Below, piece by piece: positions 1 through 12,242 of a stretch of DNA of 32,843 nucleotides. Under the pieces are notes generated by a model. The model did not search any database. It was not told the origin of the DNA and saw nothing but the letters and a program-made list of their open reading frames with translations. The stretch's first letter is position 1; the number at the start of each line of letters is the position of its first letter. The stretch lies in assembly GCA_030754995.1 (NCBI GenBank), contig JASLZG010000010.1, positions 291 through 33,133 on the forward strand, in the 5' to 3' direction. The position numbers and the translations under genes are program-made. The DNA comes from Lentisphaeria bacterium (GTDB lineage: Bacteria > Verrucomicrobiota > Lentisphaeria > JABSQK01 > CAJWLW01).

Positions 1-2
1 AC

Positions 3-824
3 GACCAGCCGGACACGCCGCCGGCGGAAAGTGCCGAGGACTGGACCAGCCACAACGTCTCGACCCAGATACGCATCGTCGGCCCCGAAAGCACGGTCCC
101 GCCCATTGAACGACCGGCGCCGGCTTCGACCATGCCCACCACAGACACCGGTAATCTGATAGATTCGAAAATCGCGGCAGCAGCGAAGAACGACGAAATC
201 AAGGTGGCCAAACCTGTCCAAGCCGATTTCATCACCAGCATCACCGAGCATGAAAGGATGGCCGGCAACGATGCACTTCACGTTGTCGAAGAGGAGGCAC
301 TCCGTCGAGCTGCAGAGACGCGGCAGGAGGCGGAAGAAGCGATGCGCGCCATCGAGGAGGCCAAGCGGGCGGCGTTCGCCGATGCCGAACGCGCCAAGGA
401 AGCCGCCGAAGAGGCGAAATGCCTGGCAATGGAGGAAGCGCAACGCGCCCGTGACGCCGCCGAGGAAGTGAAGCGTGCCGCGGAAGCTGAGGCCGAGCGC
501 GCCAAACAGGAAGCGGAGCTGGCCAAGCAGAAGGCTGTGGAGGAAGCAAAGAATGCGCGAGCCGCCGCCGCCAGCTTGAAGCGCCAGCAGGCGATCGCTG
601 CCGCCCGCCGCGAGGCCGAAGAAAAAGCCCGCCGCGTATTGGCCGAGAAACAGAGCCAGAGCGAGGCGGCAGCCGCAGAGGCCGCCCGGCGGAAGAAGAT
701 CGAGGAGGCGAAAAAGAAGGCCGTCGAGGTCGCCCGCCAGAAGGCGATAGTCGTTGCGAAAGAAAAAGCCAGGCGGAAAGCACAGTCCGGTGACAAGGGA
801 AAGAATGATGGACCAGAAACCTGA
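3..824 (+). CDS. Ala/Glu/Lys-rich coiled-coil protein (5' partial)
   Basis: The frame is open from the first complete codon at base 3, so the gene begins outside the window. An ATG at 132 exists, but the 43 codons before it are also open and read as a plausible Pro/Ser/Thr-rich linker, so I treat 132 as internal. About residues 55-225 after that ATG are an almost unbroken alpha-helical stretch rich in Ala, Glu, Lys and Arg with few helix breakers, including four 18-residue repeats. Composition resembles TolA-like or other elongated coiled-coil rods, but I see no TolA C-terminal domain, and such composition is not evidence of homology. The stop overlaps the start of the next gene by about 20 bases, so the two are probably translationally coupled. 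Function unknown; likely structural or scaffolding. A membrane anchor or enzymatic domain could lie in the missing N-terminus. Confidence 0.75.
   Translation, partial: DQPDTPPAESAEDWTSHNVSTQIRIVGPESTVPPIERPAPASTMPTTDTGNLIDSKIAAAAKNDEIKVAKPVQADFITSITEHERMAGNDALHVVEEEALRRAAETRQEAEEAMRAIEEAKRAAFADAERAKEAAEEAKCLAMEEAQRARDAAEEVKRAAEAEAERAKQEAELAKQKAVEEAKNARAAAASLKRQQAIAAARREAEEKARRVLAEKQSQSEAAAAEAARRKKIEEAKKKAVEVARQKAIVVAKEKARRKAQSGDKGKNDGPET
354..569 (+). repeat. Four 54-bp (18-residue) coding repeats
   Basis: Four consecutive 18-residue units can be aligned without gaps: EEAKRAAFADAERAKEAA, EEAKCLAMEEAQRARDAA, EEVKRAAEAEAERAKQEA and ELAKQKAVEEAKNARAAA. A more diverged copy may precede them. Eighteen residues equal five turns of alpha helix, or one heptad plus one hendecad, so the unit fits a continuous helix or a shallow coiled coil. 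The copies have diverged at the DNA level, so this is an old duplication. Confidence 0.7.
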
Positions 825-2046
825 CGCGCACGAACAACTCAAGGCGGAGATCCTCAAAGACGTCGAGGAAAAGATTGCCGCGCAGCACGAGGACGGTGAG
901 CCGTCGGCGAGCAGCAGTGAGCAAACGGCGGACGACGGCAGTCAGGCTCTCGAGGCGGAAATCCGCGAGCAGGCCGAAGCCAAGCGCCAGCAGGCGCAGC
1001 AGAAGGCCGATGGCAACGACAAGCCCCCACCCGTATCGAAACCTGCAGACAAGGATGGTGCCATCCCCGCCGACAACGACGCTGAGTCCGGCGACAGGGG
1101 CGACGACGAAGCTGCCGATAAAGGCACGGCCAAAGACCGGAAGCAGGAAGCTGGAGGTGGGGGCGCCGGTGTGAAACGTAGTGCCGGCAAAGGTGCCAGG
1201 CGCGCTGGTAAAGGCGCCGCCCCCGATGCTGCGCGGGGAAAAAAGAAGTCTGGTGTCAGCGCCAAGGTTGCAAAGCAACTGCAGTCGGCCACCGGCAACA
1301 AGAAGCATGCCGCCAGGCTGCTTGAAGAGAAGCAGGTGATTGACAGCCACTTCCGCAAATGGCAGATGGTGATGTACGTGATGATCTCCATGGGCACGAT
1401 CGCGGCCGCGGTCGTTATTTTTCAGGTTGCCCGGAATCGCGACAACAGTGCCCCCGCCGAACCGGTAACCAGGAACCTGCCGCCACCCACTGTTGTTCAG
1501 CCAGCGCCGCCCCCGGACGACCGCGACCCGGCGATGGAACCCAGTCCCGCCTTGCGGGCGCTCATGGACGAGGCGAAGGAGTTGGTGGCGATGGGCAAGT
1601 TCAAGGAATCCATCAAACTATTCGAGGACCATATCCACGATGCACCCTCGGAGAAGCCGCTGTGCGAGCGGGCGATGGACCAGCTTATTGCCGAACGTGA
1701 TCACCTTGACCGCGGCTCGCCGCGCTGGCGGAAAGTGCACAAGCAGGCGAGGGAACTGATTGCGCCGGCGTCCGATACCAGGGACGTGAAGGCGATTGTC
1801 CGGGCGTTGACGCTGGTCCGGACATTCAACGAGCGACCGGGAAAAGACCGGGATCGGGCCGAGGAACTGCTTCGCAAGCTGGACCGCATCCACTTCAAGA
1901 TGACCGGCATAACAGCGCCGGACTCACCCCGCGGCAGTGGTCCGGGTGCCGCGGTGCCGCCGGAACCCGGAGACGGTGGGGCGGTTGACGGCCGGGAGCT
2001 GCTGCCGCCTCGTGGGATAGAGGACGACTGGGACGCCGGCGAATAA
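805..2046 (+). CDS. Single-pass membrane protein with TPR-like C-terminal domain
   Basis: About 413 residues from ATG 805 (ATG 808 is equally possible); AAGGGA at 797-802 is a nearby ribosome-binding site. An upstream in-frame ATG at 754 lies deep in the preceding gene and is less likely. The N-terminal ~185 residues are highly charged, low-complexity and Lys/Ala-rich. One hydrophobic segment follows at about 188-210 (core ISMGTIAAAVVIFQVA), then a proline-rich linker, then a helical region from about 245 with a TPR-like unit (LRALMDEAKELVAMGKFKES). The C-terminus is Gly/Pro-rich. With the charged part before the hydrophobic segment, the expected topology is N-terminus in the cytoplasm and the TPR-like part in the periplasm (inference). 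It overlaps the coiled-coil gene upstream and converges on the pseudokinase gene downstream. No family recognised. Confidence 0.8.
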   Translation: MMDQKPDAHEQLKAEILKDVEEKIAAQHEDGEPSASSSEQTADDGSQALEAEIREQAEAKRQQAQQKADGNDKPPPVSKPADKDGAIPADNDAESGDRGDDEAADKGTAKDRKQEAGGGGAGVKRSAGKGARRAGKGAAPDAARGKKKSGVSAKVAKQLQSATGNKKHAARLLEEKQVIDSHFRKWQMVMYVMISMGTIAAAVVIFQVARNRDNSAPAEPVTRNLPPPTVVQPAPPPDDRDPAMEPSPALRALMDEAKELVAMGKFKESIKLFEDHIHDAPSEKPLCERAMDQLIAERDHLDRGSPRWRKVHKQARELIAPASDTRDVKAIVRALTLVRTFNERPGKDRDRAEELLRKLDRIHFKMTGITAPDSPRGSGPGAAVPPEPGDGGAVDGRELLPPRGIEDDWDAGE

Positions 2047-2152
2047 GACGCTGTCGACGGTGTACCTTGGCGCCACGGCACAAATCCGAAGTGCCGGCCG
2101 AGGCCTTCGATCTTGAGTTCATCTCAGCGCCATTGTGGGCGGGAGCCCGTCC

Positions 2153-3139
2153 TCAGACGATGCCTGCCACGGTCGCGATGGTGGCGACAATGATCACCGC
2201 GACCACCGCCAACTGTAGCGTGCACCCCTTGCCCCAGCGCTTGCCTTCACCGTTGGCTGCCGCCGCCGCACCGCTGCCGCTTCGGGCGGCCACTGATTTC
2301 ATGGCATCGGACAGGGCCTGCCAGCTTTCGTAGCGGTCCTCACGGTCTTTCTTGAGCATCCGATTGAGCAGGTCGGCGCATTCCGGCGAGACGTTCACGT
2401 TGCGTTCGTTGGCGGGCTCGGGCGGTTCGTCCATGTGTTTCTGCATCAGCAGCAGCGGCGCTATTTCCTCGAACGGCAGCGAGCCGGTCACCATTTCGTA
2501 CATGCCGATGCCGAGCGAATACATGTCGCAGCGGAAATCGAGGTCCTCGGAGCCCCTGATCTGTTCCGGGCTCATGTATTCGGGGGTGCCGATGGTGAAG
2601 CCGATGCCGGTAAGGTCCATTGACTGCCCCTCTTCGGAAGATTTGGCGATGCCGAACCCGGTAAGCCTGGCCTGGTGGTCACTGGTGATGAAGACGTTGT
2701 TGGGCTTGAAATCGCGATGCAGCAGCTTCTTGCTCTCCCAGACGTAGTGGAGGGCATCGACGATCGGGATCATCAGCTCCATGACCTCGCGCTCTGCCAG
2801 CGGGCTGTGCTGCAGCATGTAGTCGTCGAGCGTACAGCCGCCGGCCTCGCTCTGGGTCACCAGGTAATAGCAGCCGGCGTCTTCGCCGGCGTCGATGATG
2901 CGCAGGATATGTGGATGATCGATGGTCGCGAGCAGCTCGACCTCCTGCAGAAAACGGCCGACGTTCTCGTCGTCCATAGTGCCGGAAAGGATCTCGACAC
3001 GGACGCAACTGGAGCCCTCCCCGTCTTCCTGTGTGGCGTCATAAATTTCGCCCAGGCTACTTTCACCGACACGCCTCTCGAGGGAATATTTACCGGCAAT
3101 TTTTGTCCCTGCGAGGAGACCGATTTGCTCTTCGCTCAT
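2153..3139 (-). CDS. Tail-anchored serine/threonine kinase-fold protein, predicted pseudokinase
   Basis: 328 residues from the ATG at 3139 (MSEEQ); in-frame ATGs further upstream add only residues outside the fold. The eukaryotic-like kinase (PF00069) fold is clear: glycine loop at 25-30, alpha-C glutamates at 66/68, HRDFKPNN at 141-148, intact GTPEYMSPEQ at 184-193, and the CDMYSLG helix around 204-210. Two catalytic positions are lost: the VAIK lysine is Glu49 (VRVE) and the DFG aspartate is Gly161 (TGFG). The glycine loop is GESSLG rather than GxGxxG. ATP-Mg binding and phosphotransfer are therefore doubtful, although the HRD Asp143 remains. A Gly/Ala linker leads to a C-terminal hydrophobic segment (about 306-328) that ends the protein, a tail anchor holding the domain at the cytoplasmic face. 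It is the last gene of a minus-strand unit after the giant TPR and J-like genes. Confidence 0.88.
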   Translation of the reverse strand: MSEEQIGLLAGTKIAGKYSLERRVGESSLGEIYDATQEDGEGSSCVRVEILSGTMDDENVGRFLQEVELLATIDHPHILRIIDAGEDAGCYYLVTQSEAGGCTLDDYMLQHSPLAEREVMELMIPIVDALHYVWESKKLLHRDFKPNNVFITSDHQARLTGFGIAKSSEEGQSMDLTGIGFTIGTPEYMSPEQIRGSEDLDFRCDMYSLGIGMYEMVTGSLPFEEIAPLLLMQKHMDEPPEPANERNVNVSPECADLLNRMLKKDREDRYESWQALSDAMKSVAARSGSGAAAAANGEGKRWGKGCTLQLAVVAVIIVATIATVAGIV

Positions 3140-3276
3140 GGCTGTCCCCATAACTCCCGCAACGGTATGGCGGAGTATTAAGTGTAGTTGTGCAGTCGCT
3201 GTTAAATGATCGCCACAAAGTACCATGCACCGAGGCGATTTCAATTGCGGCCCGGTATCGGGTCAACGGCGGTGGT

Positions 3277-3756
3277 TCAGTTGTCAAAGACGATATGCCG
3301 GGGCGTCCGGCGGCGCTGCAGTTCAGCGATCTCGGCGACATTGACCTGCAGTTCCGGATCCCGCTCGGACTCGGGGAAATCGAGGTCTGCGAGTTCATTG
3401 CTGGTGCCTTCCACCAGCACCTGGGCGAGGCTTGGTGGCGGCAGTGTGACGTTTTCGGACTGCAGATCCGGCAGGTTCTTCAGGCGGTTCTGAATGGCGC
3501 GCACGTCGATACGGTCGAGGATGAGTGCATTGACCTGCACGCGCCGGTGACGGGCTTTCAGGATCTCGATGTGCTCCTGAAGCCGTGCTGCCTTCGCGAC
3601 CCGTTCGTCCTCGGGCAGCGAAGAGATCGCGGTCATAGCCGTCTCGAGCTGGGCGCTGATTTCTTCAGCAGACGCCGTCGGCTCGAGGCCAAGCTCGTCA
3701 TATATTGACGGGGTCCTTGGACTGGGCGGGTTTGAGTTTTTTGCTTGAGTTGTCAT
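3277..3756 (-). CDS. Small J-domain-like protein lacking HPD
   Basis: 159 residues from ATG 3756. Residues about 17-33 (SIYDELGLEPTASAEEI) match the helix I and turn pattern of J-domains (YxxLGLxxxAsxxEI). The following helices are charged, but the HPD tripeptide needed to stimulate DnaK ATPase is absent, so classical co-chaperone activity is unlikely. The second half is a charged region with an acidic/proline-rich linker and no motif I recognise. The start lies 59 bases inside the preceding giant TPR gene; no ATG, GTG or TTG between it and the J-like motif offers a shorter version. The pseudokinase gene starts about 137 bases downstream. The context suggests an adaptor working with these two membrane proteins (inference). 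Confidence 0.7.
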   Translation of the reverse strand: MTTQAKNSNPPSPRTPSIYDELGLEPTASAEEISAQLETAMTAISSLPEDERVAKAARLQEHIEILKARHRRVQVNALILDRIDVRAIQNRLKNLPDLQSENVTLPPPSLAQVLVEGTSNELADLDFPESERDPELQVNVAEIAELQRRRTPRHIVFDN

Positions 3757-6700
3757 CGTCAGTGCTTGCCTTTTTGATGTTGAGATTGCGCATGGCGCTG
3801 TACATTTTGTCGAATTCGGCGGTCATTTTCTTGCTGTTCTCTGCCGCCGCATCAGGGGCCTTGGCGGCTTCGCGCAGAACTCGCAGCGGCCCCTCGAGGC
3901 TGCCCAATTGGATGCCGGCGGGCTTGTCACGCAACAGCTTTTCAAGAAATTCCCCGGCCGTCGCGAACTCGCCCATGGCGCCACGCTGCAGGGCGTTGAG
4001 CATGTTCGTGGTGAACTCGCGCTTGGCCTTTTGAAAATCGCTGTATTCAGGAAAGACGCTACGGGCTTCGCGGAGACTTTCGAGATCGGCTGTGAACGAT
4101 GTCATGTCACGGCCATCGGTCTCGCCGATGCGGATGTGAACCAGCAGATTGCAGATGAGAAAGCCCCATTGGTCGGTGCGTGGGTCGTCGCGGCCGATGT
4201 CGGATTTAAAGGCGTTGTGGCGCTGGCCAAGCATGGCCAGGTTGTCGCGCGGATTTTCACCGGCCGAGGTCAGCAGAGACAGGTAACTCTCGAGCCCGGG
4301 CTCGTCGCTCGCTTCGATTCTCTCCAGTGTGTATTCGACAAGGGGGGTGACAAAACTCTCGAGCTTGAACCGGGTGTTGATGGCCGCGATATCATCGTCA
4401 CTGAACGGCGTTACAGTCCCGCCCGGCGCCGCAAAGCGCTGGCTCTCGCGATTCCAGAATTGCGGATTGACAAAAACATTCTCTTCCCAGAAATTCAGAC
4501 ATTCGTTCCAGGCCCCGAAGGCCTCGTCGACAGCCTGCCCCGCCTCGAGAATGCTCGCAAGCTGGTAATGCAGCACCGCCAGGTTGTGCACCAGCGAGTG
4601 CGCCAGATCCTTGTCCGCCATGCCGTCGAGCCTTTCCTTGAGTGCGAGGATTGTCTGGCGCACGGCCGCTGGATCGTTCGTGTGGTCCAGCACTTCACTG
4701 AGCGACAGCGCCATGATGACCGTCTTGATTTCCGGCGCCGGCGCCGGAATCTGCTCGAAAATATGGCGGGCACCGGCGAGGTCGTGCTTGCCGACAGCGG
4801 CAATGGCCAGCTCGGTCGAAAGAATTGAAAAGAGCTTGCTGCCACGGCCTTGATTATCGCTGAGGTAGGGCGCCAGGGCGGCCTTGGCCAGGTCGTTCTT
4901 GCCCTCCTGAATGAGAGCGACTGCCTGCAGATAGGCAACACTGGCGCGGCTGTGCACCGGCAGTTCGTCCATGAGCCCGGCAACTCTGTTGAAGTCGCGG
5001 AGGTGACACAGGTAAAAGGCCTGGTTGAGGGCCACGTGCTGATCGACGAACGCGGCACCTGTGTAGCTGCCGCCGGCAGACTGCACATCGAGTTGGCGGA
5101 TGGCTTTGGCGTAGTCGCCCTGGTGGCCCGCGAGATAGGCATTGATCGTGGCGATACCCACTTTGACGTGGGGCATCACATCCGGCATGGCGGTGAGCTG
5201 CTGCATCATCGACTGCACGGCGGTGTCGTGTCCGAGTCCGAGCTCGGCGACGATCGCATGGTATTGATAGCGGCTGTTGCCCTGCTCGGTGTCCCGCAGA
5301 CGGTTCAATGTCGCCAGGGCTTCTTCATAGCTGCCCCGGTGCAGATGGTTCATGGCGGTATAGAACTGACAGAGCCGCTGGTGCTGCGGGTCGCTGCTCC
5401 GGGCCTGCAGTTCGGACAGTACACTCTGCGCCTCGTCATGGTTTCCGTTGGCCTCGAGGCCGACCACGTGACGAAGCTGCGACTCCGCAACGAGCCGTGA
5501 GAGCCGCTGTTGCCGGGCCGGGTCGGTGACGCTCGCAGCGACCGACTCGAAGCATTGCCGGGCGGCGTCGTAAGCGTTGTGATCGATCAGAAAGAGTCCC
5601 AGCGAATAGAGCGTCCGCTGGGCAATGCCGGACCAGACGGTATCGACGGACGCCGGGTTCACAAGATGTGGAATGATTTCGCCGCAGCGGTCGAGACGGT
5701 GCTGTGTCGCCAGCGCCCTGGCATAGAAGTAGAGGTCCCAGGCGGACAGCAGATCAATCGATTCGACGGCGCCATAATGCTGCAGGGCCTTGTCGTTGCG
5801 CTCGGCCATGGCATAAATGCGACCCAGTGCGGTGTGCGCCGGAAGGCTGAGAGCGCTGCAACGGGCGGCCTTCTCGAGGTGCATGATTGCTTTGGCGATA
5901 TTTTTGTCCTCGTACAGCAGGCCGCGGTAGTAATTGGCGCTGAAATTGTCCGGCTCGGTCTGCAGAACCTGATCAAATATGGTTGCCGCCTTGTCGCCGT
6001 CGCCGCCTTCGAAAGCCAATTGCCCCATGCCGACGAATGCCGGAATGCAGTTGGCGTCGATCGTCAGCGCCTGCTTGAACTTCGCCTTGGCGTCCTGCAG
6101 GTCGTTGGCCAGGTATTTGATGTTGCCGTGCAGCGCCAACGCCCTGGAGTAGAAGACGTCGTCCTCCTTGATGAGCCCGGCTATCTTGACCGCCTTGTCC
6201 ATGGCGCCGTGGGCGGCCAGGGAGGATGCCAGGAAATACACCGCTTCGCTGTCATTCGGGTCGCGCTTGAGCAGTTGCTGGAAGTGATCGACGGCCTTGT
6301 CGATCTCGTCGGCGCGGGCATAGGAGCGGGCGCTCCAGAAGAGGCTGTCGCGGTCCTTGTCGGGGATCGAGTCGTAACACTTGTAGGCGGAGACATACTT
6401 GCCGGTCTCGAAGAAGCAGCGGCCGAGCTTGGACCACAGGTCACGGTTGCCGCCGCGGGCGGCGAGACACACCTTGACGTGTGAGATCGCTCCTTCGTAG
6501 TCGTGCGACTCGAACAGCAGGTCACCGAGCAAGAGGCGGGTATCGATATGCTTGGGATTGAGGCCGACGTGCTGGTTGAGATAGCGGCGTGCATCCTCGG
6601 TGAGGCCCAGCTCGACCGCCAGGCGGCCGAGCTGGCACAAGCACTCGGCGAAGTTGTTATTCCAGTCTTCGGTGGTCTTGACCAGTTCCTTGTCGAGGCG

Positions 6701-9700
6701 CTTGAGCAGGCGCTCGAATTCCTGGTAGCCGCGCTGCGGTTTGGAATCTGCCAGTTCGCGAGCCTTGGAGATGCGATAGAGTAGCCGGTCATGGAGCAAC
6801 GGCAGATCCTTTTCGAGGCGTACGATATTCGCAGAAAGCCGGTCCTTGAAAGAGTGTGTTGCAATCGGCCGGTCATCCCTTGTGCCGCCCAGCACCTGGA
6901 GCAGCAGGCGCTCGAACACCAGCCGGCGCTCGGCGTAAATCAGCGGGAAAAAGAGGTAGGTGCTGAAGCCGATACCGTAGAACAGGACACCCGGGATTAT
7001 GGTGGCCCGCACGAAGGCGGTTGAGAAGTCGACATTGGAGATCAGGCATGGCACAAGTATTGCCAGGAACGCCGCAAAAACGGTTGCGAACTGGAGCAGG
7101 CGATAGTGCAGATGGCCGCGCGCCCGGCCGTGGCGGTGGGCGACGACATAGGCACTGAGCCAGATGATGATGGTGACACCGAACAGAAACCAGTCGAGGT
7201 CGGTCTTGATCCCCATGGGCCTTTGAATGCGGGCAAGGCGCACCTTGCGGGCCAGCTCGCGGCGGCGTTCCACCAGCGAATAGTCCAAGGCGACAAGCGG
7301 GAAGTTTATCAACACATCGCCGTAGATTGCATCGGCCTTGATACTTTGGCCGGTTTCGTTGTAGTTCTCGGCCAGGGCGATTTTCCACTTGACCAGGAGA
7401 TCGTCGAAATTCTCGGCCGCGCTGATGTTCTCGAAGCGGCGCACAAATAATTGCAGCGCTTCCACGAAAAGGACGGATACTTGCCGGCCCTGTTGGCTGT
7501 CCCGGTCGTACTGTCGAACGGTCTGCCGGACGATCGGCACGATGGCGCTCTCGAGGTCAATTTCCTTTGAGAGGCTGGCGTACTGTGATTGGAACTCGTA
7601 CACTGCGACGATGGCCTGGACGAACTTTCCCTGCTTCCAGATTTCCTCGAAGTCCGCCACAATGTCGCCCGCGATGGCGCTGATGCTCGAGACCCCACCG
7701 GCCGCCCCCGGGTAGTCGGCGCAGAGGTCATTGAAAATTTTCAGGCGGCTGTCGTCGTCGAGATTGTCGGGCAGCAATTGCAGCCGCAGTTCGACGATGC
7801 GCTCACGCACCCGCCCGCTGCGGGCGAACATCGGGTCGGCAACGGCCAGTGCCTCGAGCTGCCCAATGGCTTCCTCCGGCATCCCGGCCGCGGCCTTCTG
7901 GTTGGCCAGCCGCAGTTGCAGCTGGGCCATTTGCTGTTGCAGCGTGCTGTCGTGACGCGACTCCTCGTCTTTCCCGATCAACTGGTTATAGCAATCAAAG
8001 GCCTTGGCGTTGAGGCCCTTGAGCGCATAGGCTTGTGCCAACTGCTTCTGCAGGCTGAACAGCGACCGCGAGCCGTCCGGGGTCAAATATTCGAAACCGA
8101 ACTGCAACAGTTCATCGGCGCGTTGCAGGCGACCGTCGGCCAGGCAATACTCGACCAGGCTGATCAACGTGTCGTGGCCGCCGCCGGCCAGAGACGAAAT
8201 GTCGTTGCTGAACACGTTGGAAGCGCGGGTGAACAATGCCAACCGCTGCTGTTCGGCGAAATCGGCCCATTGCGAGTAGGCCTTGTTGTGGACCTTGCCA
8301 CGATTGTCCAGCAGCCACCGGTCGAGAGCAGTGTAGCGATCCCACTGCTCGACAGCGTCGCCTTCGAGGATCGCCGCGAACTGCTCCTGAAAAATGGCAT
8401 AGCCGGCCACCTTGCGGATGCCCGACTCGATCACGTCGAGGCGGTATTCCGCGGCCAGCAGGGCATCGTGGTTTTCGGCCAAGAACCTCTGGGCACGCTT
8501 CACCAGCTCCTGGTTCTGTGCCGGCGTGTTGCCGACGACCGCTGCCAGCTGCATCGTCGTACGTGCCCCGGTTGCCCGCAGGATGCCAGCGTTTGCATGC
8601 GCCTGCATGCCCGCGTCGTCCGTTGCGTCGAGCACTTTGCCCAGCTCGGCGATGGCGTCGTCGTACCGCTTCTGCAGCAAGGCGCGATTGCCGTTGTGCA
8701 AGAAGCGTTGGATCGTCATGATCTCGCGGTGCCGAGCGGTGGCGGCGGCACGGTGGCCGCGGATTTTCCGGAGCTGCTCATCCAGGGTGCTGTTGAGCTT
8801 GACGATATCCGGCCCGAACATCTGCAGTTTCGCCCGACTCAGAAATAACTCGATCCCGTGGACCCTGCGCTGGGCCTCCTCGTACGCTTGCTGTGGCAGA
8901 TCGATGTCGGCTTGGAGCAGGTTCTCGACCGCCGGCATCACCTGCTCCAGTCGCCGGTCGACGATCTCGTAGACCTGCGCCAGGAAGGTCGCCAGATTCT
9001 CATGATAGAGGTCGTTGACACCGGCACCGCCATTGATCCCCAGCAAGTAGGATTCGGCACGGGCGGTGAGCGAAGTCGTCCGTAGCTGCTCGATGGCTTG
9101 TTCATGGAGCGTGTCGACACACAGTTGCTGTTCACGGCGCAGGATCTCGGCAACTTCGGCGCGATCATGCCGGACCAACGGCGTATCACCCTTGATCTGG
9201 ATAAGGTCACGCTGGAAACGGATCAGCTTCGCCAGGTTGCTGTTGTTGTACGGCTCCCGGCCGTTGACCAGATCAAGAACCAGGTGATCGACGTGCTTTT
9301 GCAATTCCAGCACCGCGATTGTGTTCGGCACGGCCGTAATCATCTCATCGTAATATTCGATCGCGTGGTACAACGCTCGACTCTGGTGCTTCTGTGCTTC
9401 CAGCCGGGCCGCCAGAAACGGCTGCACCGCCAGCTTGAACTTGGCGACAGCCACTTTCAGGTCCTCGGTATTGCGAGTGGCCCGGGCGAATTCCTGCTCC
9501 TTGATGTTGCGGTCGATAATGTTGAGCAGCTGGCTGACATTGCTGGTTTCCTGGAACATCGTTCCGGCGATGCGGACATCTTTGAAGCGCAGATGCACAA
9601 TCTCCGCATCCGTTGCCACGAAGTAACGCTTGGCACCGTCGTCGGCACGCACGGGGACGCCCTCGACCGCCATGTTGCTCCACATGTAGAACGTCCGCAG

Positions 9701-9805
9701 GAACTCGGTCTGAGCCCGTGCCGGCAAGGCGCACATAGCCGTCAGCAGTGTCACAGCGGCAAGCCGCCGGATGTCTCGACAAGTTGGGCGGTGCGATTGT
9801 ATCAT
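3698..9805 (-). CDS. Giant membrane-spanning TPR protein
   Basis: About 2035 residues from ATG 9805. That start gives a good signal peptide: Arg-rich n-region, hydrophobic LAAVTLLTAMCALPA, and ARA-Q cleavage near residue 32. An ATG at 9883 would add 26 residues before it and is less convincing. About 830 residues of mostly helical, TPR-like sequence follow. Then come three transmembrane segments at about 865-960 (first core FLFGVTIIIWLSAYVV, third core FYGIGFSTYLFFPLIYA), then about 1070 residues of TPR-rich sequence, for example SLFWSARSYARADEIDKAVD. Signal peptide plus three membrane passes puts the first half in the periplasm and the second in the cytoplasm. It is the first gene of a unit with the J-like protein and the pseudokinase. 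No enzymatic domain seen; scaffold or sensor is inferred. Confidence 0.85.
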   Translation of the reverse strand: MIQSHRPTCRDIRRLAAVTLLTAMCALPARAQTEFLRTFYMWSNMAVEGVPVRADDGAKRYFVATDAEIVHLRFKDVRIAGTMFQETSNVSQLLNIIDRNIKEQEFARATRNTEDLKVAVAKFKLAVQPFLAARLEAQKHQSRALYHAIEYYDEMITAVPNTIAVLELQKHVDHLVLDLVNGREPYNNSNLAKLIRFQRDLIQIKGDTPLVRHDRAEVAEILRREQQLCVDTLHEQAIEQLRTTSLTARAESYLLGINGGAGVNDLYHENLATFLAQVYEIVDRRLEQVMPAVENLLQADIDLPQQAYEEAQRRVHGIELFLSRAKLQMFGPDIVKLNSTLDEQLRKIRGHRAAATARHREIMTIQRFLHNGNRALLQKRYDDAIAELGKVLDATDDAGMQAHANAGILRATGARTTMQLAAVVGNTPAQNQELVKRAQRFLAENHDALLAAEYRLDVIESGIRKVAGYAIFQEQFAAILEGDAVEQWDRYTALDRWLLDNRGKVHNKAYSQWADFAEQQRLALFTRASNVFSNDISSLAGGGHDTLISLVEYCLADGRLQRADELLQFGFEYLTPDGSRSLFSLQKQLAQAYALKGLNAKAFDCYNQLIGKDEESRHDSTLQQQMAQLQLRLANQKAAAGMPEEAIGQLEALAVADPMFARSGRVRERIVELRLQLLPDNLDDDSRLKIFNDLCADYPGAAGGVSSISAIAGDIVADFEEIWKQGKFVQAIVAVYEFQSQYASLSKEIDLESAIVPIVRQTVRQYDRDSQQGRQVSVLFVEALQLFVRRFENISAAENFDDLLVKWKIALAENYNETGQSIKADAIYGDVLINFPLVALDYSLVERRRELARKVRLARIQRPMGIKTDLDWFLFGVTIIIWLSAYVVAHRHGRARGHLHYRLLQFATVFAAFLAILVPCLISNVDFSTAFVRATIIPGVLFYGIGFSTYLFFPLIYAERRLVFERLLLQVLGGTRDDRPIATHSFKDRLSANIVRLEKDLPLLHDRLLYRISKARELADSKPQRGYQEFERLLKRLDKELVKTTEDWNNNFAECLCQLGRLAVELGLTEDARRYLNQHVGLNPKHIDTRLLLGDLLFESHDYEGAISHVKVCLAARGGNRDLWSKLGRCFFETGKYVSAYKCYDSIPDKDRDSLFWSARSYARADEIDKAVDHFQQLLKRDPNDSEAVYFLASSLAAHGAMDKAVKIAGLIKEDDVFYSRALALHGNIKYLANDLQDAKAKFKQALTIDANCIPAFVGMGQLAFEGGDGDKAATIFDQVLQTEPDNFSANYYRGLLYEDKNIAKAIMHLEKAARCSALSLPAHTALGRIYAMAERNDKALQHYGAVESIDLLSAWDLYFYARALATQHRLDRCGEIIPHLVNPASVDTVWSGIAQRTLYSLGLFLIDHNAYDAARQCFESVAASVTDPARQQRLSRLVAESQLRHVVGLEANGNHDEAQSVLSELQARSSDPQHQRLCQFYTAMNHLHRGSYEEALATLNRLRDTEQGNSRYQYHAIVAELGLGHDTAVQSMMQQLTAMPDVMPHVKVGIATINAYLAGHQGDYAKAIRQLDVQSAGGSYTGAAFVDQHVALNQAFYLCHLRDFNRVAGLMDELPVHSRASVAYLQAVALIQEGKNDLAKAALAPYLSDNQGRGSKLFSILSTELAIAAVGKHDLAGARHIFEQIPAPAPEIKTVIMALSLSEVLDHTNDPAAVRQTILALKERLDGMADKDLAHSLVHNLAVLHYQLASILEAGQAVDEAFGAWNECLNFWEENVFVNPQFWNRESQRFAAPGGTVTPFSDDDIAAINTRFKLESFVTPLVEYTLERIEASDEPGLESYLSLLTSAGENPRDNLAMLGQRHNAFKSDIGRDDPRTDQWGFLICNLLVHIRIGETDGRDMTSFTADLESLREARSVFPEYSDFQKAKREFTTNMLNALQRGAMGEFATAGEFLEKLLRDKPAGIQLGSLEGPLRVLREAAKAPDAAAENSKKMTAEFDKMYSAMRNLNIKKASTDDDNSSKKLKPAQSKDPVNI

Positions 9806-10075: not shown

Positions 10076-10927
10076 ATGCCCGCCTGGTCCAAGGACAACA
10101 TTGCCCGTCATCTGCTGCACGCTGCCGGGATTGCACTGCATTACTACGACAATTCAGGGCCGACTGAGAAGGCCGACGGCAGCGTTGTCACCCGGGCCGA
10201 TCATGAAATCGAACAGTACTTCCGGCAGACCTTCGACCACCCTTCTGCAGGTACGTACCTGCTGGGCGAGGAAACCCAGGGGACGCTGGACGACGACTAT
10301 GTCGCCGAGGCGCTGTCTGGTGAGTTGTACATTGTCGATCCGATCGACGGCACCGCGCCGTACGCCAACCGGCTGCCCATGTGGGGCATATCCATCGGCC
10401 TGGCACAGGCCGGCACGCTGCGCCAGGGCGCTGTCTATATGCCGATGACTCGCGAGCTCCTGGCGTCCGACGCCGATGGTGTCTGGTGGCTGGACCTGTG
10501 CAACTGGACGGACGGTGAACCGCTGCCCTGGCAGCCGCTGGCGCCGCCGACGGCACGGTACACTGTCCATGGCATGATCTGCCTGACCCAGGCGACGACG
10601 AAGCACGGCAGTATCGACATTTGCAATCCGGTACAGTGCGTCTGTTGCGCCGTCATGTCGTTCGCCTATCTTGCGGTCGAACGCTACCTGGCGTATCTTG
10701 GCGACCACCGGATCTGGGATCTCGCCGGCTGCCTGCCGCTGCTTGAGCGGCTCGGGTTCGAGGCCCGGCTGCTGAGCGGCGGCAGCCTTGGCTGCACCAT
10801 CGACGCGACTGGCTACTGCCTCGAGAAAGGTCACCGAGACCGGTGGCGCGTTGTCTCGCCGTGCCTCTATGCGGCGCCGGCGGTGGCGGGCCATGTCATG
10901 CCGGCGGTCGATTTGAACGGCAACTGA
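10076..10927 (+). CDS. Inositol-monophosphatase-family phosphatase
   Basis: 283 residues, the usual family length. The metal-dependent phosphatase signatures are present: substrate-loop-like EKADGSVVTRAD (31-42), GEE with Glu65/Glu66, DPIDGT at 88-93 with Asp88 and Asp91, and IWDLAG with Asp215. All ligands for the two or three Mg ions seem intact, so a soluble cytoplasmic enzyme hydrolysing a phosphate monoester is expected. The family includes inositol-1-phosphatase, histidinol-phosphatase (HisN-type), CysQ and fructose-1,6-bisphosphatase; the substrate cannot be read from the sequence. No clear Shine-Dalgarno precedes ATG 10076. The LarA-type gene follows after 22 bases, so the two are probably co-transcribed, which hints at a sugar-phosphate or hydroxy-acid route. 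Confidence 0.88.
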   Translation: MPAWSKDNIARHLLHAAGIALHYYDNSGPTEKADGSVVTRADHEIEQYFRQTFDHPSAGTYLLGEETQGTLDDDYVAEALSGELYIVDPIDGTAPYANRLPMWGISIGLAQAGTLRQGAVYMPMTRELLASDADGVWWLDLCNWTDGEPLPWQPLAPPTARYTVHGMICLTQATTKHGSIDICNPVQCVCCAVMSFAYLAVERYLAYLGDHRIWDLAGCLPLLERLGFEARLLSGGSLGCTIDATGYCLEKGHRDRWRVVSPCLYAAPAVAGHVMPAVDLNGN

Positions 10928-10949: not shown

Positions 10950-12242
10950 ATGCCAATGCTTGTCAACGACGGTGCTACCGACCGTGTCATCCTGCCCGAG
11001 GAGCAGCGCCGCCACCTGCAGACGGCGCTCGAATCGATTGCCGACCGGCCACGCAAGGTGCTGCTCGTGCCGCCCGACATTACCCGAAAGCACTCGCAGG
11101 CCGGTCCCCTTACAGCCATGGCTTACGAGCTGCTCGGACCGGACGTCCAAGTCAACGTCATGCCTGCTATTGGCACGCATTTTGCCATGACCGACGACGA
11201 AATCGCCGCCATGTTCGGTGACACTATCCCGCGTGACCGCTTCCTCGATCACGATTGGCGCGACGGTGTCGAGTCCGTCGGGGTCATTCCGTCGGCGTTG
11301 GTTGCCGGGTGGTCCGCCGGCCTCGTCGATTACGACATCGAGGTTTCGGTCGACCGCGAACTGATACACGGCGGCTATGATCTGATCCTGTCTCTTGGCC
11401 AAATTGTGCCGCACGAAGTCGTTGGCATGGCCAACTACAGCAAGAATATCATCGTCGGGCTCGGCGGTGCCGACTTGATTAATCGCTCGCACTACGTCGG
11501 CTCGGTCCACGGCGCCGAGCGGACCATGGGACGGATCGATACACCGGTGCGGCGGATTCTCAATTACGCCTTGCATGAATTCCTCGGGACTCTGCCGATC
11601 TGGTTCGTGTTCACCGTCGTGGAGCTCGACACAGGTACCGGCACGCTGAACATGCGCGGTATCTATATCGGCGATGATGACGAGACTTTTGCCAGCGGCG
11701 CGCGCCTCAGCCAGCAAGTCAATCTGAATCTTCTGGGGCAGCCTCTGCACAAGGTCGTTGCCTACCTCGAGGCGGACGAGTTCAAGTCGACCTGGCTCGG
11801 CAACAAGGCCGTCTATCGCAGCCGGATGGCCATCGCCGATGGCGGTGAGCTGCTCGTGTTGGCTCCGGGGTTGCGCGAATTCGGTGAGGATCGGACGATT
11901 GACGCGCTGCTGCGCAAGCACGGTTATCCGGGCACGCCCGAAACGATCGCGCTGGTGGCACAGGATGAAGACCTGGGCAATTGCCTGGGCGCTGCTGCAC
12001 ACATGATACATGGCTCCAGCGAAGGACGCTTCTCCATCACCTACTGCCCGGGCGAAGCGATGAGCCGTGAAGAAATCGAGTCGGTCGGGTACCGCTATGC
12101 CGATCTCGGTGAAATGCTCGAACGCTATCCGCCGGATCAGCTCGATGAGGGGTTCAACATCATGCCGGACGGTGAGGAGATCTATTTCATCAGCAACCCT
12201 GCCCTGGGTCTGTGGGCGTTGCAGAGCGACTTTCCGGGTTGA
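10950..12242 (+). CDS. LarA-family nickel-dependent racemase/epimerase-like protein
   Basis: 430 residues with ribosome-binding site AAGGGG about 8 bases before the ATG. The N-terminal domain has the LarA signature PPDITR (41-46), then AIGTH (His77) and DHDW (His101). The central motif carries His155, Lys165 and His181/His188, spaced as the residues that hold the nickel-pincer (NPN) cofactor and do the acid-base catalysis in lactate racemase (there His108, His174, Lys184, His200). The family interconverts stereoisomers of 2-hydroxy acids including sugar acids; lactate is only one substrate. The cofactor-making LarB, LarC and LarE genes are not in the window and would have to be elsewhere. It sits directly behind the IMPase-family gene and converges on the regulator region at 12313. 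Confidence 0.87.
   Translation: MPMLVNDGATDRVILPEEQRRHLQTALESIADRPRKVLLVPPDITRKHSQAGPLTAMAYELLGPDVQVNVMPAIGTHFAMTDDEIAAMFGDTIPRDRFLDHDWRDGVESVGVIPSALVAGWSAGLVDYDIEVSVDRELIHGGYDLILSLGQIVPHEVVGMANYSKNIIVGLGGADLINRSHYVGSVHGAERTMGRIDTPVRRILNYALHEFLGTLPIWFVFTVVELDTGTGTLNMRGIYIGDDDETFASGARLSQQVNLNLLGQPLHKVVAYLEADEFKSTWLGNKAVYRSRMAIADGGELLVLAPGLREFGEDRTIDALLRKHGYPGTPETIALVAQDEDLGNCLGAAAHMIHGSSEGRFSITYCPGEAMSREEIESVGYRYADLGEMLERYPPDQLDEGFNIMPDGEEIYFISNPALGLWALQSDFPG

Follow-up and report, generated by a model that had tools for sequence, protein, structure and literature searches.

A gene for a giant TPR protein and a gene for a small J-like protein devoid of the HPD motif form what is apparently an undescribed two-gene membrane unit of a single, small order of bacteria related to Verrucomicrobia. 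With moderate confidence, we regard this unit as an order-restricted inner-membrane scaffold, in which the J-like protein would be the cytosolic subunit and act as a binding adaptor. The pair lies in the window, i.e., the whole stretch of 32,843 nucleotides analyzed here, which is part of one contig (C11) of a 4.94-Mb draft genome, and a gene for a kinase-like protein follows on the same strand. A preliminary description had proposed the three genes as an undescribed system. A conserved and apparently new TPR/J-like pair and a true pseudokinase both emerged from our analysis, but the pseudokinase lost its place as third member, its gene being linked to the pair in only one of five genomes. In the literature searched, no account of such a TPR-J system was found.

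Open reading frames and translations agreed with the first reading of three same-strand genes, including an overlap of exactly 59 bases (3698..3756) between the TPR and J-like genes in the window (Table 1). Orthologues at 25 to 57% identity exist for all three, which marks them as protein-coding rather than chance frames. Two plus-strand genes of the window were also annotated. The first (754-2046), convergent to the pseudokinase gene, encodes a 430-aa single-TM protein with a Lys/Glu/Ala-rich N-terminus and no match in Pfam or NCBIfam; the second (10950-12242) matches NCBIfam NF052594, a nickel-dependent putative hexonate epimerase, at 589 bits (cut-off, 500).

Table 1. Features of the locus in window coordinates; sides of the membrane are those predicted from hydropathy
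Feature	Position	Strand	Basis
Pseudokinase with C-terminal TM helix, inside ORF 2153-3244; adjoins the J-like gene only in this genome	2153..3154	-	Pkinase 4.3e-45 (Pfam), motif losses, five-member clade
J-like protein, 159 aa, without TM segment, signal peptide or HPD	3277..3756	-	ORF, profile, fold, hydropathy
C-terminal tail of the J-like protein, conserved in all five (position -3 Phe, position -2 Asp or Glu)	3280..3294	-	Alignment; tail kept in G002 relic
J-like domain, residues 18-81; HPD position is LP-E or similar	3514..3705	-	Profile alignment to DnaJ; model helices
Giant TPR protein, 2,035 aa	3698..9805	-	ORF, translation, full-length orthologues in four same-order genomes, Pfam TPR
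TPR arm in the cytosol (residues 961-2035), the most conserved region	3701..6925	-	Pfam, identity by region, column conservation
Order-specific membrane core of three TM segments (residues about 870-958)	6932..7198	-	Hydropathy; phylum profile search
Fast-evolving helical/TPR-like solenoid in the periplasm (residues about 85-861)	7223..9553	-	AF2 model, Foldseek, weak Pfam TPR, regional identity
Periplasmic beta domain of five strands at the N-terminus (residues 37-79)	9569..9697	-	AF2 model strands
Signal peptide, residues 1-31 (...LPARA/Q, cleavage before Q)	9713..9805	-	Sequence; hydrophobic N-terminal segment in orthologues
Inositol-monophosphatase (IMPase)-like gene, divergent from TPR gene	10076..10927	+	Same neighbor in 4/5 genomes with the pair

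Conservation and natural loss of the TPR-J gene pair

The comparison set comprised six members of the order, five of which, from four families, hold an intact TPR-J pair, so that all statements on conservation refer to only five orthologue pairs. Full-length TPR orthologues were recovered in four same-order genomes (25 to 30% identity over about 2,000 residues). A plain search detected the J-like protein in four of the five same-order relatives; a profile detected it in every one of the six members, although in the sixth only a fragment is left. The TPR gene sits directly upstream of the J-like gene, in the same orientation, in all five genomes holding both, across the four families; the conserved neighborhood that the preliminary description had named as its test is thus present for this pair. 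The 59-base overlap was dismissed as a meaningful signal, since it is absent in the relatives, where the two genes are spaced by +2, +3, +26, and +244 bases; it is peculiar to the window because of a C-terminal extension of the TPR protein encoded there. In three relatives the neighbor downstream of the J-like gene is not the kinase gene but gpmI (phosphoglycerate mutase). Conservation of gpmI (3/5 genomes with the pair) and of the IMPase-like gene (4/5), the latter probably background synteny, means that the adjacency of the TPR and J-like genes may itself partly reflect such synteny.

The sixth genome, G002, which belongs to the genus of G005 and has a main contig of 1.95 Mb, carries a natural deletion of the unit. 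IMPase and gpmI genes are kept, and between them lies a remnant (L064:13804-14110) in which about 57 TPR codons, with stops, run into about 46 J codons. The 5′ end of the TPR gene (to codon ~57) is fused to the 3′ end of the J-like gene (from codon ~111), so that a single deletion removed the bulk of both. One deletion across two neighboring genes does not prove that they function together. The G002 genome is reduced (a relative in its genus has 7.3 Mb), contains transposase-like fragments and almost no Hanks kinases, and may be that of a host-associated organism.

Profile searches across wider taxonomic ranges argued against members outside the order. In 198 genomes of the class, the hits of the J-like profile beyond the order were all weak (E about 1e-4 to 1e-3) and correspond to the J domain of canonical DnaJ. 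Among 388 genomes of the phylum, the profile of the TPR membrane core (A4) yielded outside the order one fragmentary match (E=5e-4) interrupted by two internal stops.

Architecture and proposed working of the unit

The preliminary description had placed TPR-like sequence on both sides of the membrane, and our analysis supports TPR-type solenoids on both predicted sides, with different kinds of evidence for the two halves. TPR repeats are certain in the cytosolic half, where Pfam TPR_19 matches five stretches (4.4e-33). Pfam TPR matches to the periplasmic half are weak (TPR_6 in four of the five orthologues; best, 3.3e-4), and it is the AF2 model (mean pLDDT 83.8) that reveals a helical solenoid there, with a five-strand N-terminal domain followed by long helices and then by TPR-like hairpins at residues 514 to 832. 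Neither profile nor Foldseek searches of the PDB returned a solved homologue of this half, the matches being generic TPR solenoids and scaffolds. The Campylobacter flagellar periplasmic scaffold 9hmf_K and the T9SS protein SprE are among these Foldseek matches and likewise consist of long TPR-like solenoids, but the resemblance is that of generic solenoids at low TM-scores, and the TPR protein described here, unlike them, is predicted to cross the membrane and to have in the cytosol another TPR arm, which is the more conserved of the two. A signal peptide, three closely spaced TM segments, and TPR-rich sequence beyond them make an N-out/C-in topology the natural reading of the hydropathy profile. 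Conservation is split accordingly between the two predicted faces: mean identity among orthologues is 18 to 22% in the periplasmic half and 29 to 40% in the cytosolic half, and columns invariant in polar class, Trp, Cys, or His number 10 and 59, respectively, in the five orthologues. Selection has thus acted chiefly on the side facing the cytosol, the one on which the J-like protein has to reside. Seven cysteines (residues 1055, 1113, 1130, 1143, 1374, 1418, and 1600) are invariant in all five orthologues; all of them map to the cytosolic half (window 3698-6925) and none to the periplasmic half.

The assignment of the small protein as J-like, also made in the preliminary description, is backed by both profile and structure. 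A Pfam search with the window protein alone returned no DnaJ match, and three of the five orthologues did match Pfam DnaJ (best, 4e-5). The five-member profile retrieved J domains from the PDB (DNAJA1, E=1.2e-4) as well as the canonical DnaJ of class relatives. The model, of moderate overall quality (pLDDT 63; about 80 in residues 20-70), has helices at 18-22, 30-45, 49-67, and 69-80, and its first Foldseek matches in the PDB are J domains, with probabilities up to 1.00 at E-values of only 0.1. A chance resemblance of helices was rejected on the basis of these profile and fold matches. HPD is absent in all five orthologues, in which the loop reads LPEDE, LPAEE, LPKEQ, LSKVE, or is deleted, with no fixed residue set in its place. 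Because fold and profile are present while HPD is missing, we call the protein J-like and not an Hsp40 cochaperone. Elsewhere, the genomes of the order encode J proteins above the Pfam cut-off, most with a readable HPD, and a canonical HPD-containing DnaJ is among them. Hydropathy revealed neither a TM segment nor a signal peptide in the J-like protein, which would therefore meet the cytosolic TPR arm. Its C-terminal half is conserved, with a motif of its own, and ends in Phe-(Asp/Glu)-x in all five orthologues, a tail that is a candidate docking peptide.

From these features we propose the following working of the unit. The signal peptide would export the N-terminal half, placing the beta domain and the long helical/TPR-like solenoid in the periplasm; three helices would cross the membrane, and the second long TPR solenoid would extend into the cytosol. 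The J-like protein would be a dedicated subunit that docks directly on the conserved cytosolic arm, perhaps via its C-terminal tail. Without HPD, it would most likely bind proteins as an adaptor instead of activating DnaK. So assembled, the unit may tether cytosolic partners to the membrane and link them to partners in the periplasm that change rapidly. A precedent for HPD-less J-like domains as binding modules is plant CJD1, whose J-like domain interacts with ARC6, a membrane protein, in yeast two-hybrid assays and does not substitute for DnaJ/CbpA in E. coli (PMC3196505). CJD1 and Pam16/Tim16 share with the protein described here a J fold without HPD and an association with membranes. However, the latter is predicted to be soluble, with no TM segment, shows an operon-like pairing with a giant TPR protein, has no detectable homology beyond the J region, and belongs to a family that our searches located in a single bacterial order.

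The precedent for a link to Hsp70 comes from Pam16 and other J-like proteins (PMC11349236); in this reading, the J-like protein would use the TPR platform to recruit or restrain DnaK, or a genuine J protein, at the membrane. The retained J fold and the presence of canonical DnaJ in the order genomes are compatible with such a role. We nonetheless consider it unlikely, since no Hsp70 or J gene was recognized near any of the five TPR-J pairs and the loss of HPD in every orthologue left no fixed replacement residues. That the J-like protein is needed only to fold, insert, or stabilize the giant TPR protein would fit a small cytosolic protein strictly paired with one large client, but its conserved C-terminal half, with motif and tail, suggests a lasting subunit and makes a mere assembly chaperone quite improbable.

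A conserved pseudokinase, linked to the pair in one genome

The best NCBIfam match of the kinase-like protein is PknB/Stk1-type (201 bits, below the curated cut-off of 450), and PknB-type kinases are among its best PDB profile matches. It differs from PknB/Stk1-type kinases in having no PASTA domains and in the loss of two catalytic residues. Orthologues occur in four relatives (51 to 57% identity), and the five proteins form one clade (SH-aLRT 99). In all five, the VAIK lysine is replaced by Glu and the DFG aspartate by Gly (GFG/GFA), while HRD-K-N is kept. Among about 60 kinase domains tabulated, only these five carry both losses, on which ground an active PknB with sequence noise was discarded. 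By hydropathy, four of the five orthologues have a TM segment at the C-terminus; the fifth runs to the contig end, with none there.

Degenerate motifs of other kinds occur in related kinases. The nearest kinases at class level (L076, L079, L075, and L077) keep the VAIK lysine and the DFG aspartate, and most have HRE or HRN instead of HRD, i.e., the opposite loss; in L076 and L079 (733-734 aa), it falls in the second of two tandem kinase domains. Five order genomes encode one tandem kinase protein each (L004, L027, L042, L066 [1647-5267, minus strand], and L068 [1-1779, minus strand]), with a degenerate catalytic loop (HHD, HND, or HWD for HRD) in the second domain, and these second domains form one clade. 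DLHK bacterial pseudokinases have lost the beta3 lysine and kept the HRD aspartate, and one member is listed with GFG for DFG (PMC12599244); they are devoid of TM regions and often linked to helicase/DNA2 domains (PMC12599244). The motif pattern is similar, but the pseudokinase described here has Glu at the beta3 position and, in most orthologues, a C-terminal TM segment, and its closest relatives are PknB-type kinases from its own class.

The conserved linkage to TPR-J by which the preliminary description would have the kinase judged was not found. The four other orthologues lie on separate contigs, away from the pair, so that linkage is limited to this genome (1/5), and these neighborhoods led us to reject the kinase gene as a conserved operon partner. 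In G004 and G005, the pseudokinase gene instead adjoins genes for a Pkinase plus cNMP-binding protein and a CHASE2 cyclase. This conserved cluster (L066:5647-10954 and L067:5895-11219) comprises a Ser/Thr kinase-cNMP-binding fusion, the pseudokinase, and a convergent CHASE2 adenylate/guanylate cyclase; it is possibly a PKA-like cyclic-nucleotide signaling set.

It could still be argued that, despite the kinase gene lying apart in most genomes, TPR, J-like protein, and pseudokinase build one noncatalytic membrane scaffold. All three genes occur together in five of the six order genomes, so that some looser connection in function is conceivable, and in G002 each of them is either absent or disrupted. 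In addition, the double motif loss is strictly conserved and the membrane anchor is present in most orthologues, and in the window no terminator-like site was found on the minus strand between the J-like and kinase genes. We hold this three-part arrangement to be very doubtful given the single case of adjacency and the different company that the pseudokinase gene keeps in G004 and G005. Its joint absence with TPR-J from G002 carries little weight, because that genome has lost nearly all of its kinases (2 Hanks kinase matches versus 63 in G005). The broader picture of a transmembrane scaffold made of binding modules only, which would count the unlinked membrane pseudokinase as a further noncatalytic member and couple envelope and cytosol in an order-specific manner, we likewise judge improbable. 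In our preferred reading, which confines the scaffold to the TPR and J-like proteins, the pseudokinase would be a separate conserved protein that neighbors them here by happenstance.

Significance of the two families

Bacterial HPD-less J-like proteins and bacterial pseudokinases have barely been studied. The J-like protein has one obvious candidate partner, the giant TPR protein, so that the idea of J domains serving purely for docking can be put to a direct test in bacteria. In the pseudokinase clade, Glu invariably replaces the catalytic Lys and Gly the Asp of DFG, which makes it a clean family in which to address a noncatalytic role of the kinase fold.
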